Assembly: GCF_004122095.1 (NCBI RefSeq) | Contig: NZ_SAWZ01000001.1 | Location: 558,001 to 622,000 of the forward strand | Reading direction: 5' to 3' | Length of the DNA: 64,000 nt | From: Pseudoxanthomonas composti | GTDB taxonomy: Bacteria > Pseudomonadota > Gammaproteobacteria > Xanthomonadales > Xanthomonadaceae | Shown: one piece after another, positions 24,198 to 28,956 of the stretch | Position numbering within the stretch: position 1 is the stretch's first letter | Layout of the letters: each line of letters starts with the position of its first letter | Program-made: the position numbers and the translations under genes | The notes under the pieces: model-generated | The model's input: the letters and a program-made list of their open reading frames with translations, nothing else | What the model was told of the DNA's origin: nothing | Databases searched by the model: none

Positions 24198-25274
24198 TCA
24201 ATGACGGCGCACGATCTCCAGCACATCGTCCAGCAGCGCCGCGGCGGTGACTTCCGCGCCGGCGCCCGGCCCCTGCACCAGCAGCGGCTGCTCGGGATAA
24301 CGATCGCTGTGGATCGCCACCCGGTTGTCGGTGCCCGCACCGCCGCACAGCGCGTGCTCGGCGCGCAAGGCCTGCAGCGAGACGCTGGCGCCCCGTGCAT
24401 CGAAGCGCCCTACGAAGCGCAGCCGCGCGCCCTGAGCAAGGGCCCGCGAGGCCTGCTCGGCCAACGGTGCATCCAGCGTCGCCAGCGCAGCGTCCAGCCC
24501 ATCCTGGTCGGCAGCCGCCAAGGCGTCAGGCACCAGCGATTGCACGTGCACGTCCTGCGCCTGCAGCGCCAGACCGGCCGCACGCGCCAGGATCAGCAGC
24601 TTGCGGCGCACGTCCTCGCCGGACAGATCGATGCGCGGATCCGGCTCGGTATAGCCGGCCACCCGGGCCTGGCGCACCAGGTCCGAGAACGGCTGGCTGC
24701 CGTCGAAACGGTTGAACAGCCAGGCCAGCGAACCGGACAGCACGCCTTCTACGCGGCTAATGCGATCTCCGCCGGCCACCAGCGCGCGCAGGCTGCGCAG
24801 CAGCGGCAACCCCGCCCCGACCGTGGCGCTGTCGCCGTACCGGCTGTGGCCGCTGCCGGCCGCATGCGCGATCTGCTGCGCACGCAGGAGCTCGGCGCCG
24901 GTACCCAGCTTGTTGGCGGTCACCACGTGCACGCCCCGGCCCAGCCAATCGGCGTGACGCGCGGCCACCGCATCGCTGGCCGTGGCGTCGATGACGATAT
25001 CGCCCGTCGCCAGGTCATCGGCGCGATCCCACGCAGGCACCGTGCCGTCATGCGCGGCGGCCAGGCGCAGGCGCTGCACGCACGCGGCCAGGTCATCACA
25101 GCCCGGCTCGATCCCGCGCGAGTTGGCCAGCCAGGCAAAAGCGGGCAGCTCGGTGCCGCGCGCCTGCAGGCGCGCGTGGCGCTCGATGAGCGCGCTGCCG
25201 ACCACGCCCGTGCCCAGCAAGGCCAGGCGCGGTTTCCTGCGCGGCGCGGTCGCCAGGCGCACCACCGCGCTCAT
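24198..25274 (-). CDS. hom: Homoserine dehydrogenase, monofunctional
   Basis: A 358-residue NAD(P)H-dependent enzyme that reduces aspartate semialdehyde to homoserine. The Rossmann motif is LALLGTGVVGSALIE near residue 20; DIVIDATASDAVAARHADWLGRGVHVVTANK and the catalytic region GAGLPLLRSLRALVAGGDRISRVEGVLSGSLAWLFNRFDG with AGYTEPDPRIDLSGEDVRRKLLILAR are family hallmarks. No ACT or kinase domain is present, so unlike ThrA/MetL it is not fused. It overlaps metB by 4 bp as the last gene of metX-metB-hom, supplying homoserine to the pathway. Terminated by the hairpin at 24140. Confidence 0.95.
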   Translation of the reverse strand: MSAVVRLATAPRRKPRLALLGTGVVGSALIERHARLQARGTELPAFAWLANSRGIEPGCDDLAACVQRLRLAAAHDGTVPAWDRADDLATGDIVIDATASDAVAARHADWLGRGVHVVTANKLGTGAELLRAQQIAHAAGSGHSRYGDSATVGAGLPLLRSLRALVAGGDRISRVEGVLSGSLAWLFNRFDGSQPFSDLVRQARVAGYTEPDPRIDLSGEDVRRKLLILARAAGLALQAQDVHVQSLVPDALAAADQDGLDAALATLDAPLAEQASRALAQGARLRFVGRFDARGASVSLQALRAEHALCGGAGTDNRVAIHSDRYPEQPLLVQGPGAGAEVTAAALLDDVLEIVRRH

Positions 25275-26488
25275 GCGTCGGCCTGTTTCTTCAGCGCGGA
25301 GGCAGCCACGGACTGCGCGCGCGCCAGGCCCGCCTGCAGATCGGCCACCAGGTCATCGGCCAGCTCGATGCCCACCGACAGGCGCAGCAGGCCATCGGAG
25401 ATACCGGCCTTGGCGCGCGCCTCGGGCGTCATCGCCGCATGGGTCATGGTGGCCGGATGCGCGACCAGGCTTTCCACCCCGCCCAGGGACTCGGCCAGGG
25501 TGAAGTACTGCAAGCCCTCGACGAAGGCGCGCACGGCCGCCTCGCCGCCGTCCAGCTCAAAGGAGATCATCGCCCCGAAGCCCTTCTGCTGGCGCGCGGC
25601 CACGGCATGGCCCGGATGCGAGGCCAGCCCCGGGAAGTAAACCTTGGACACCGCCGCGTGGACGTCGAGTACATCGACGATGGCCTGGGCGTTCTCCTGG
25701 TGCACGCGCAGGCGTGCATCCAGCGTGCGCAGGCCGCGCAGGGTCAGGAAGGCATCGAACGGCGAGCCGGTCAGGCCCAGCGCATTGGCCCACCACACCA
25801 GCTGCTGATGGACCTCGGCCTCGCGCGCGATGACCGCGCCACCGACCACGTCGCTGTGGCCGTTGACGTACTTGGTGGTCGAGTGCAGCACGATGTCCGC
25901 GCCGAACTCGATCGGCTTCTGCAGCGCGGGCGAGAGGAAGGTGTTGTCCACCACCGCCAGCGCGCCGGCCTTGTGCGCCGCCTCGATGACAAAACGCAGG
26001 TCGGTGATGCGCAGCAGCGGGTTGGACGGGGTCTCGATCAGCACCAGCTTGGGCGACTGCGCCAGCGCTTCGCCCAGCGACACCGGGTTGGTCAGGTCGG
26101 CGGTGATCAGCTGGAAGTGGCCCTTGGCCGCCAGCGCGTTGAACAGCCGCCAGCTGCCGCCGTAGGCATCGTGCGGCACCACCAGCTTGTCGCCGGGCTG
26201 CAGCAGCGCATTGAGCACCAGGTTGATCGCGCCCATGCCGGTGGCGGTGATCACCCCGCCGGCGCCGCCTTCCAGCTCGGCCAGCGCCTCGCCCAGCAGG
26301 TCGCGCGTGGGGTTGCCGCTGCGCGTGTAGTCATACTGGCGCTTGTTGTTGAAGCCGTCGAAGGAGAAGTTGGACGACAGCACGATCGGCGGCGTCACCG
26401 CGCCGAAGGCGGTGTCGCGATCGATGCCGGCGCGCACGGCGGCGGTGGCGGAGCTGCAGGGAACGGCGTCGTGCGGGGAACGGCTCAT
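25271..26488 (-). CDS. metB: Cystathionine gamma-synthase
   Basis: A 405-residue PLP enzyme of the Cys/Met metabolism family that joins an activated homoserine with cysteine to form cystathionine. The PLP lysine is Lys206 in HSTTKYVNGHSD; other family motifs are YDYTRSGNPTRDLLGEALAELEGG, ATGMGAINLVL, PHDAYGGSWRLF and LIETPSNPLLRI. Related O-acylhomoserine sulfhydrylases are about 430 residues, so the length and motifs fit MetB; a gamma-lyase activity cannot be excluded. Overlaps hom and metX by 4 bp each, hence coupled translation. Confidence 0.92.
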   Translation of the reverse strand: MSRSPHDAVPCSSATAAVRAGIDRDTAFGAVTPPIVLSSNFSFDGFNNKRQYDYTRSGNPTRDLLGEALAELEGGAGGVITATGMGAINLVLNALLQPGDKLVVPHDAYGGSWRLFNALAAKGHFQLITADLTNPVSLGEALAQSPKLVLIETPSNPLLRITDLRFVIEAAHKAGALAVVDNTFLSPALQKPIEFGADIVLHSTTKYVNGHSDVVGGAVIAREAEVHQQLVWWANALGLTGSPFDAFLTLRGLRTLDARLRVHQENAQAIVDVLDVHAAVSKVYFPGLASHPGHAVAARQQKGFGAMISFELDGGEAAVRAFVEGLQYFTLAESLGGVESLVAHPATMTHAAMTPEARAKAGISDGLLRLSVGIELADDLVADLQAGLARAQSVAASALKKQADA

Positions 26489-27519
26489 GGGGTGTCTCCA
26501 GAGGGACGCAAGGCGTTGGCGAGGATCGCGTCAATGCGATCGGTTTCTTTCAGGAAGGCGTCGTGGCCGTAGGGCGAGCGCAGCACGCGCAGGTGGCCCT
26601 TGGGCCCCAGCCCTTCGACCAGGGTGACCAGATCCGCCAGCGGCACCAGGCGATCGCCTTCGACGGCGACCACGGTGGTCGGCACGGCGATGCTGGCCGG
26701 GTCGATGCGATGCAGGTCGATGGATTCGGACAGGCGCAAAAAGGCGTTGACCGGCGTGCGCGCCACGTACTGCGCACCAGCGGCGTCCAGGTAATCCTCG
26801 GCGGCCACGCGCACGCGGCCGTTGACCAGCTCCGGCGGCGCGTCGAAGCGCTCGCCGAACTCCTCCGGCGTGCGATAGCTCAGCATCGCGAACTGCCGCG
26901 CCAGCGACAGCCCCTGCTGGTCGGCGCACTGCATCTGCCCCAGGGCGACCGCGTGGCGCTGCAGTGCGCGCCAAGCCGAGGCGAACGGGTGCGGGCGATG
27001 CGCACCGCTGACGGCCACCAGCCGCTCCAGCCGCTGCGGGTGCCGCGCGGCCAGGTGCTGGCCGACCAGCGCGCCGTAGGAGTAGCCGACGAAGGCGCGC
27101 AGGCAGGGAATCTCCAGCGCATCGAGCAGCGCGGCGATGGCGTCGGCCTGGTCGGCCGGGTCGATCGGCGCATCCAGCGTGCCATCGGCGCCGATGAAGT
27201 CGAAGGACAGGATGCGCACCCGCGCCGGATCCAGGGTGCGCCCCGCCGCGAGCAGGTCGTTGGCCCAGCCGCTCTCGGGGAACGCCTCGCTGGCGGCGAC
27301 ATGGCGGTGCGCGGAAATGCCGCCGGCCACGAACACCACCGGCGCATCGATGCGGCCGTTGAGTTCGTAGCGCAGGGTCAGGGTGCGTGCGCCGGCGTGG
27401 CGCAGCGACAAGGCGATGGCGATCTCGCCGCGCAGGGCAACGGAGCGGCCGTCACCCGTCGCGGCGACGGGACAGGCAGGCTCGGAAGCGGCAGCGATGG
27501 AGGCGGTGGCGAGGCTCAT
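26485..27519 (-). CDS. metX: Homoserine O-acyltransferase, MetX family
   Basis: A 344-residue alpha/beta-hydrolase-fold acyltransferase that activates homoserine for methionine synthesis. It shows LNGRIDAPVVFVAGGISAHRH, the nucleophile elbow VGYSYGALVG (Ser about 147), and the C-terminal VAVEGDRLVPLADL and SPYGHDAFLKE that carry the Asp and His. Whether the acyl donor is acetyl- or succinyl-CoA, or the acceptor serine as reported for some xanthomonad MetX-like enzymes, cannot be decided here; placement with metB and hom favours homoserine. First gene of the operon, behind a SAM-I riboswitch. Confidence 0.9.
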   Translation of the reverse strand: MSLATASIAAASEPACPVAATGDGRSVALRGEIAIALSLRHAGARTLTLRYELNGRIDAPVVFVAGGISAHRHVAASEAFPESGWANDLLAAGRTLDPARVRILSFDFIGADGTLDAPIDPADQADAIAALLDALEIPCLRAFVGYSYGALVGQHLAARHPQRLERLVAVSGAHRPHPFASAWRALQRHAVALGQMQCADQQGLSLARQFAMLSYRTPEEFGERFDAPPELVNGRVRVAAEDYLDAAGAQYVARTPVNAFLRLSESIDLHRIDPASIAVPTTVVAVEGDRLVPLADLVTLVEGLGPKGHLRVLRSPYGHDAFLKETDRIDAILANALRPSGDTP

Positions 27520-27547
27520 GACGGTCCGGATCGGTGGAACGGGCCAT

Positions 27548-27566
27548 CGAGCTTTCGCGGAGCTCG
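27548..27566 (-). promoter_or_regulatory. Hairpin in the riboswitch expression platform
   Basis: CGAGCT and AGCTCG form a perfect 6-bp stem with a 7-base loop in the 80-nt segment between the aptamer and the metX start. There is no T-run, so intrinsic termination is unlikely; control of translation or of Rho entry is more plausible. Confidence 0.4.
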
Positions 27567-27599
27567 CGTTCGTCGTGCGTCGCAGACGTCACGGTACGA

Positions 27600-27717
27600 A
27601 CCATCTTTCGGCGGACGCTCACGGTCCCCGCAGGATTTGGCACCGACACGACGCGCTGTTTTGCGTCGCTGGCTGCCCCGGCTTCAAAGGGCCTGTCCCT
27701 CTGCCGGTCTCGATGGT
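27600..27717 (-). ncRNA. SAM-I (S-box) riboswitch aptamer
   Basis: Read on the minus strand, the leader of metX contains GAGGGACAGGCCC, then TTTGAAGCC with GGGGCAGCC, and later GGTGCCAAATCCTGCGGGG, in the order and spacing of the SAM-I core, where AGGGACTGGCCC..GATGAAGCCCGGCAACC..GGTGCTAATTCCTGC is typical. The P1 helix closes with ACCATC (27717-27712) and GATGGT (27605-27600). Between the core halves is a variable stem built on GACGC and GCGTC. SAM binding is expected to lower expression of metX-metB-hom. Confidence 0.92.
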
Positions 27718-27723
27718 GGGTGC

Positions 27724-27752
27724 AGGTTGCCAGCCGAATTTGGCCTTGTCAA
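27724..27752 (-). promoter_or_regulatory. Predicted promoter of metX-metB-hom
   Basis: TTGACA (minus strand, 27752-27747) is a consensus -35; 17 bases later is CAACCT (27729-27724), a weak -10. The predicted start is near 27717, which is the first base of the riboswitch P1 helix. Confidence 0.6.
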
Positions 27753-27775
27753 TCGCTTTATGCGGATAAAGCGAT
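27752..27775. promoter_or_regulatory. Perfect 10-bp-arm dyad overlapping the met promoter
   Basis: ATCGCTTTAT and ATAAAGCGAT are perfect inverted arms around GCGG. The dyad ends exactly on the first base of the -35 box of the met promoter. It is also about 78 bp upstream of the divergent lipoprotein gene. It looks like a repressor operator; the sequence differs from MetJ boxes and MetR sites, and I cannot name the protein. Confidence 0.65.
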
Positions 27776-27852
27776 GGAAAGATTTCAGCTGCAACCGCCG
27801 CCTCACTGCCAACCCCTGTCGAGCCCGCCGTTTGCCCCTCATAATTCGAACG

Positions 27853-28956
27853 ATGCGCCGCATCATTCTGTTGACCTCCCTGTTCACCGTGACCCTCCTG
27901 CTGGCCGGCTGCGCCAGCCGTCCGCGCGTCACGGCCCCTGCCGCCGCCCAGGCGGTCGCCCCGGCCAGCGCCGACGCCGTCGTCGCCGAGGCATGGGTCA
28001 GCGCCCCTCACCCGGAGGAGGAAGTCGATTCCATCGCCGTGTGGCCGACCGAGGACGGCGGCAGCTGGCTGATCGTGACCGCCAAGCAGACCGAGCAGTT
28101 GGTCGTGTTCGACGCGCAGAGCGGCCGCCGCCTGCGCACCGTCGGTAGCAGCGGCAGCGCGCTGGGGCAGTTCAAGCGACCCAACGGCATCGCCGTGTTC
28201 GGCGACCTGGTGTTCGTGGCCGAACGCGACAACCACCGCGTGCAGGTGCTGCAGCTGCCGGACTTCACGCCGCTAGCGGCCATCGGCGAGCGCGAGCTGA
28301 AGGTGCCCTACGGTCTGTGGCTGCACGAGGTGGCACCCGATGAGCTGGAACTGCTGGTCACCGACAGCTTCATGGCCGACTTCCGCACCCGCGCCCTGCC
28401 GCCCATGGCCGAACTGGACCAGCGCGTGAAGCGCTACCGCGTCGCGCAGAAACCCGACGGCAGCGTGAGCGCCCGCTACCTTGGCGCCTTCGGCGATACC
28501 AGCGAGGCCGGCGCGCTGCGCATGGTCGAATCCATCGCCGGCGATCCGGCCAACGACCGCCTGCTGATCGCCGACGAGGACGTGCGCGTGGGTTCGACCC
28601 TGCGCGACTATACCCTCGGCGGTCGCTATCGCGGCCGTAGCCTGCCGCGCTTCCAGGCCGATGCAGAGGGCGTGTCGCTGTGGGCCTGCGATACCGACCA
28701 GGCCGGCTACTGGATCGCCAGCGACCAGCTCACCCCCACCCTGTTCCGCGTCTACGACCGGGTCTCGCTGGCGCCGGTCGGCACCTTCTCCGGCAAGTCG
28801 GTGGGCGACACCGACGGCCAGGCCCTGTACGCCACCCCCAGCGCGCGCTTCCCCGCCGGTGCGCTGTACGTGCAGTCGCGCAACGAGAGCGTGGCCGCCT
28901 TCGACCTGCGCGACATCGCCGCGGCGCTGAAGCTGGCCCCTGCCTGCGTGGAATGA
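27853..28956 (+). CDS. Phytase-like beta-propeller lipoprotein
   Basis: A 367-residue lipoprotein with lipobox LLAGC at the end of a short signal sequence (Cys about 19). The mature part reads as a six-bladed propeller of the 3-phytase/NHL type: DSIAVWPTEDGGSWLIVTAKQTEQLVVFD, FKRPNGIAVFGDLVFVAERDNHRVQVL, SIAGDPANDRLLIADED and DAEGVSLWACDTDQAGYWIASDQ. These are the landmarks of bacterial beta-propeller phytases, though the calcium-site residues cannot be checked by eye. It overlaps the M23 peptidase gene in an ATGA, so the two are coupled. Confidence 0.78.
   Translation: MRRIILLTSLFTVTLLLAGCASRPRVTAPAAAQAVAPASADAVVAEAWVSAPHPEEEVDSIAVWPTEDGGSWLIVTAKQTEQLVVFDAQSGRRLRTVGSSGSALGQFKRPNGIAVFGDLVFVAERDNHRVQVLQLPDFTPLAAIGERELKVPYGLWLHEVAPDELELLVTDSFMADFRTRALPPMAELDQRVKRYRVAQKPDGSVSARYLGAFGDTSEAGALRMVESIAGDPANDRLLIADEDVRVGSTLRDYTLGGRYRGRSLPRFQADAEGVSLWACDTDQAGYWIASDQLTPTLFRVYDRVSLAPVGTFSGKSVGDTDGQALYATPSARFPAGALYVQSRNESVAAFDLRDIAAALKLAPACVE

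Follow-up and report, generated by a model that had tools for sequence, protein, structure and literature searches.

A 64,000-nt stretch of the Pseudoxanthomonas composti genome (contig NZ_SAWZ01000001.1, positions 558,001 to 622,000; hereafter the window) carries the methionine operon metX-metB-hom on its minus strand. The operon encodes homoserine O-succinyltransferase (metX, 26485..27519; NF006449, 552.9 bits), cystathionine gamma-synthase/O-succinylhomoserine (thiol)-lyase (metB, 25271..26488; NF006450, 817.7 bits) and a stand-alone homoserine dehydrogenase (hom, 24198..25274). The best NCBIfam match of hom was NF006959, with hom residues 17-356 falling on the dehydrogenase half; the score of 293.2 bits lies under that fused model's cut-off of 726. 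Ahead of metX lie a leader of the SAM-I riboswitch family (S-box; SAM, S-adenosylmethionine), a promoter and a 24-bp dyad. Judging from the comparisons below, the dyad is very probably the operator of SamR, a protein that combines an ArsR-type DNA-binding part with a domain resembling SAM methyltransferases.

The dyad ATCGCTTTATCCGCATAAAGCGAT (27752..27775, minus strand) was recognized in the sequence, in a genome motif scan and by comparison of metX promoters. Its arms, ATCGCTTTAT and ATAAAGCGAT, are perfect over 10 bp each and enclose CCGC. The final T of the dyad is the initial T of the -35 hexamer TTGACA (27747..27752, minus strand), the one base common to both. A 17-bp spacer leads to a poor -10, CAACCT (27724..27729, minus strand), which agrees with TATAAT at 2 of 6 bases and is preceded by TGG, in the manner of an extended -10. 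The sequence thus bore out the initial annotation of this DNA, which had described a dyad with 10-bp arms ending on the first base of TTGACA and a spacer of 17 bp. A simple sigma-70 consensus scan called no promoter in 27450..27900, because the -10 is poor.

From the spacing, transcription would start at 27717..27719 on the minus strand. This agrees with the 190-nt 5' untranslated region (5'UTR) found for the met operon of Xanthomonas campestris by 5' rapid amplification of cDNA ends (Zhang 2018, PMC6230763). When projected on 10 Xanthomonas orthologues, this length placed the start no more than 3 nt away from the first base of the aptamer. One further locus (L094) gave 6 nt and was set apart, its MetX match beginning at residue 7 and its start codon being uncertain; five other loci named Xanthomonas were left out, and the projection contains no X. 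campestris locus. The start predicted earlier at the P1 helix, 27717, lies 2 nt inside the first base of the aptamer model.

The SAM-I aptamer (27598..27719, minus strand), also predicted earlier, was confirmed by a covariance scan with RF00162. The score of 68.2 bits (E 8.9e-14) exceeded the cut-off of 44.4, and the match covered the whole aptamer (model positions 1-108 of 108). It was the sole Rfam match in the window at gathering thresholds. The expression platform (27520..27597, minus strand) could be aligned with those of 19 relatives. Alignment and folding showed conserved hairpins and an AUGG segment, kept opposite the metX start codon region, with which it could pair. No terminator-like site was found on the minus strand of 27450..27900. 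With a segment able to sequester the start codon and without an intrinsic terminator, the leader looks like a translational riboswitch of the SAM-IXcc type. By sequence it is the orthologue of the one proven in X. campestris, which has a like operon order, aptamer family and start, a platform alignable with the window's, an AUGG anti-start segment and likewise no intrinsic terminator (Zhang 2018, PMC6230763; Tang 2020, PMC7270179). According to the latter report, SAM binding was demonstrated by in-line probing, translation was repressed by about 98% on SAM, and the expression platform also binds uncharged tRNA-fMet, a property reported for X. campestris only.

The layout of dyad and aptamer was compared over 81 metX promoters, comprising the window and 80 related loci from named genomes. 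The dyad stood in the same place in all 80 related loci, so that the close relatives upheld the initial annotation, and 12 of its positions were invariant in 81 of 81 promoters. The automatic aptamer anchor worked for 79 of the 80 loci, which were taken together with the window. In the resulting 80 sequences, 31-34 bp separate the operator from the anchored start of the aptamer; in the window, this anchored start is 1 bp ahead of the model start. TTGACA was in register in 78 of the 80; the remaining two had TTGACT and a 1-bp shift. In 67 of 80, TGn was seen at the extended -10. One locus escaped the anchor because of an inserted base (L056); direct reading showed operator and aptamer there in a like layout. 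Since 12 of the 24 bp are invariant over 81 promoters while the adjoining spacer drifts among metX loci, the dyad is under selection at the metX promoter. We do not favour the idea that it serves the divergent lipoprotein gene (start 27853), since all 81 loci have the dyad at this position ahead of TTGACA and aptamer.

The dyad motif occurred at three exact sites in the 4.33 Mb of the window genome, and a reversed control pattern at none. Together with its constant place in the related metX loci, this shows that the dyad is not due to chance. The three sites precede metX, metK and metE, the latter two assigned by NCBIfam; the metK operator (L112:1501-1533) ends 9 bp upstream of the start codon. 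A variant, ATCTCCATATCGCGATATAGAGAT, which equals the motif at 11 of 12 fixed bases, stands directly before the start codon of samR, upstream of a split metH. With the patterns tried, the genome-wide search suggested initially yielded only metX-metB-hom, metK, metE and the samR-metH variant. The samR product is a 334-aa ArsR-methyltransferase protein with an HTH_metalloreg match above cut-off, weaker matches to methyltransferase models and the motif VLDIASGDG. Among sequences of solved structures, ArsR-type regulators and SAM methyltransferases were matched separately, and no chain spanning both halves was among the matches listed.

The link between SamR and the motif was followed across 100 genomes of the order. 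SamR, defined by a match of 261 bits or more, was present in 94 (partial in G044); five of the other six had weak matches only, and one (G076) had a 35%-identical protein. The motif was found in 93 of the 100 genomes and the reversed control pattern in one. Of the 94 genomes with SamR, 92 had the motif, as did 1 of the 6 that lack SamR (Fisher p 1.6e-6, or 2e-5 without the doubtful G076; no correction for kinship). Within one family (f11), the two genomes with SamR had 1 and 4 sites, and the three without it 0, 1 and 0. The lone site in a SamR-less genome (G078) had no neighbour recognized as a methionine gene.

Outside the window's family, 34 genomes bear SamR, and in 28 of them an operator lay no more than 28 bp from where the SamR match begins. 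A total of 70 exact sites were found in 33 of these 34 genomes, 62 of them at samR, SAM-I leaders or methionine genes: samR 28, SAM-I leaders 11, metK 19, and metF, metE, metH and ahcY one each. NCBIfam confirmed two metK as well as metF, metH and ahcY; three metK were recognized by their N-termini and metE by the MetE search, and 14 of the 19 metK sites lay directly before metK by tblastn (69-88% identity). Because of this co-occurrence, the autoregulation and the target genes, SamR is strongly supported as the regulator of the dyad, a SamR-type protein having been one of the candidates in the initial annotation.

The 11 SAM-I leaders with an exact operator belong to four other families of the order (f2, f3, f4, f5), and the operator lies 33-39 bp upstream of them; over these families and the window's own (f1), the distance is 31-39 bp. 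In a separate survey of 17 SAM-I leaders, a subset of those in 78 SAM-I-positive genomes, three had the operator: two from f1, and one from f5 that is also among the 11. The other 14 lacked it, with at best 8 of 12 fixed bases (four from f7, four from f12, three second copies from f4, and one each from f8, f9 and f10). In three of the four f4 genomes, SAM-I leaders occur in pairs, one with the operator (L142, L143, L144) and one without (L278, L279, L280); the operator-bearing leader L143 stands ahead of metB.

At metE, the operator lies inside another riboswitch. MetE was encoded in 31 of the 100 genomes, and all 31 upstream regions (L183-L213; L113:1477-1729 in the window genome) scored as cobalamin riboswitches. 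In 29 of these leaders the P2 stem of the riboswitch is the SamR operator, with 11 or 12 of the 12 fixed bases. The other two are L209 (G052), where the operator overlaps the 5' edge of the cobalamin model instead of P2 and the match is the weakest of the 31, and the leader of G076, which lacks the operator in a genome without clear SamR. TTGAC lies 46-50 bp before the operator in all 29 leaders of the P2 type; by this spacing, transcription would start some 10-15 bp ahead of the operator. The operator was absent from all 43 other cobalamin riboswitches taken from 20 of those genomes (best 8 of 12 fixed bases, both strands; one match under the cut-off, G006:C47, was excluded). A chance hairpin was rejected on this ground and on that of the G076 leader.

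The bases themselves were compared between 28 distinct metE hairpins and 65 distinct metX sites, without correction for kinship. The fixed positions were invariant or almost so at both genes, and the information profiles correlated at 0.80. The pairs flanking the operator were standard at metE in 93% (0/25), 96% (-1/26), 100% (-2/27) and 79% (-3/28) of hairpins, against 3%, 74%, 85% and 5% at metX, so that the contrast is weak for pairs -1 and -2. At metE, pair -1/26 alternates between C-G (18) and T-A (6). The inner pair 8/17 was Watson-Crick in 93% of metE hairpins (C-G 20, T-A 6) and in 49% of metX sites. The central pair 12/13 behaved in the opposite way, with 29% at metE and 83% at metX, as a hairpin loop would. 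This pattern shows, as far as bases can, a double coding of the metE sites as DNA operator and RNA stem. In one f12 metE leader (L206; G087:C1:533650-534550), a met-box-like CCGTCTAGACGG was seen by eye downstream of TTGAC, in addition to the SamR operator in P2; this gene possibly has three controls.

Met boxes, as known from the methionine repressor MetJ of Escherichia coli, are tandem AGACGTCT-like octamers. The best pair in the window promoter agreed with this consensus at 8 of 16 bases, and no MetJ was found in the window genome or in the rest of the search within its family, which covered 60 genomes. MetJ was therefore rejected as the binder of the dyad, in keeping with the initial annotation. 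MetJ was encoded in 11 of the 100 genomes (f8, f11, f12). All four f12 SAM-I leaders examined (L269, L270, L271, L272), each from a genome encoding MetJ, carry tandem met boxes with 13-16 of 16 bases, a score that none of 500 shuffles per leader attained; among the other 13 leaders of this comparison, the highest was 10 of 16. These boxes lie 35-40 bp before the aptamer, directly ahead of TTGAC, and so fill the same slot as the SamR operator at metX. This refilling suggests selection for a protein gate ahead of SAM-I. It is likely that one 24-bp word serves at metE as both DNA operator and P2 stem, a SAM-cycle protein and a B12-sensing RNA using the same bases, and that the slot before SAM-I at metX can be refilled by the unrelated SAM repressor MetJ.

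The aptamer, the operator, the regulon of this operator and its tie to SamR are shown computationally by these comparisons; their working in the cell has to be weighed separately. At metX-metB-hom, SamR may bind the dyad between about -58 and -35 and block access to the -35, repressing transcription with SAM or S-adenosylhomocysteine (SAH) as ligand. The SAM-I leader would begin at +1 and control mainly metX translation, and both layers would work in the cell at the metX promoter. The identity of both elements, the dyad as SamR operator and the leader as SAM-I riboswitch, we consider quite probable. The odds are about even that this gate at the promoter has a role in the cell.

Several observations weigh against a working double gate or against SamR as its protein. 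In X. campestris, gusA fusions with 109 bp and 52 bp upstream of the start were similarly active, whether or not 1 mM methionine was present (PMC6230763). The dyad lies at about -58 to -33 in the 10 Xanthomonas orthologues, and from this spacing the 109-bp fragment would hold the whole dyad and the 52-bp fragment would lack its outer 4-6 bp (9 bp by the uncertain start codon of L094). A promoter with a presumably whole dyad was thus blind to methionine, and shortening into the dyad changed nothing, so that methionine would not act through the dyad there. The 5'UTR alone was reported to give 98% repression in a translational fusion, and Zhang et al. concluded that feedback comes from the 5'UTR, not from the promoter (PMC6230763). 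Two genomes (G034, G079) have SamR without the exact motif, and the examined SAM-I leaders of families f7-f10 lack such an operator. By tblastn, 8 of the 70 order-level sites adjoined no relative of nine methionine or SamR proteins and would look like chance or unrecognized targets. SamR binding to any site was not found in open-licence PMC papers. The double gating of the initial annotation therefore stood in its elements, a SAM-I aptamer and a conserved predicted SamR operator; the methionine response expected of the promoter was not seen in the X. campestris fusions. Possible ways to reconcile these are another ligand (SAH), titration by plasmid copies or another condition.

The same data can be explained with identical elements that work differently: SamR would bind the dyad with little or no effect here under methionine shifts, the riboswitch alone would give feedback, and SamR would answer SAH load or methylation stress. 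The methionine-blind fusions (PMC6230763) and the repression of translation by about 98% through SAM-I (PMC7270179) agree with this, as do the order-level sites at ahcY, metF, metH and metK, which belong to the SAM/SAH cycle. The invariant half of the dyad beside a drifting spacer points instead to selection at the metX promoter itself, and we regard this explanation as possible, though not probable. SamR might also activate metX in a class-II-like manner, as its site is centred near -46.5, upstream of the -35, and the -10 is poor. The operator lies in the transcribed leader or beside the start codon at metE, metK and samR, which suits repression, and the 52-bp X. campestris fragment, probably missing the outer dyad, was reported fully active; activation is therefore unlikely. 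A different regulator sharing SamR targets might be the binder, such as MetR, for which Leyn 2014 (PMC4239095) predicted sites at metE and at one metF paralogue of Xanthomonadales. This is very unlikely: the motif marks the samR start in 28 of the 34 SamR-bearing genomes outside the family, 5 of the 6 genomes without SamR lack it, and MetJ was not found in f1.

The predicted repression by SamR ahead of a SAM-I leader joins systems that are known separately. SamR, its 24-bp palindrome and a regulon of metX2, metB, hom, metK, metE, metF and metH were predicted by Leyn 2014 (PMC4239095). That SahR-like protein, encoded beside metH1/metH2, has metX2, metB, hom, metK and metE as targets in common with ours. 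The phrase 'cobalamin riboswitch' is absent from the accessible text of that paper; the overlap of operator and P2 at metE was seen here. The accessible parts of the SAM-IXcc papers (PMC6230763, PMC7270179) do not name SamR and report a methionine-unresponsive promoter, whereas a SamR operator is predicted in the window. The closest parallel is the hom-metXC operon of Oceanicaulis alexandrii, where a SahR-type regulator and a SAM riboswitch were described in one genome (PMC4239095). That switch is SAM_alpha; here it is SAM-I, with an almost fixed spacing over five families. SamR, its palindrome and the riboswitch are therefore known in print, and their arrangement is new. The operator as P2 of the metE cobalamin riboswitch and the MetJ refill of the SAM-I slot both seem new, and among open-licence PMC papers none was found that connects SamR to SAM-I or to the cobalamin riboswitch of metE.

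The nearest named genomes by MetX identity were Pseudoxanthomonas (92% and 85%). A MetX scan of viral contigs gave no match, and the plasmid search gave a single partial one (72.5% identity). One compared locus, L068 (JAHREJ010000001.1), is titled Bacillus subtilis and has a Stenotrophomonas-like metX locus; it is probably mislabelled or mixed.

The SamR regulon prediction and the SAM-IXcc riboswitch work are here brought together on one operon. The operon is a clean system in which to study why one gene should carry two gates, one of protein and one of RNA, whose ligands are related. The overlap of operator and riboswitch stem at metE can be tested directly, as base pairs could be changed to keep the helix and break the operator, or the reverse.
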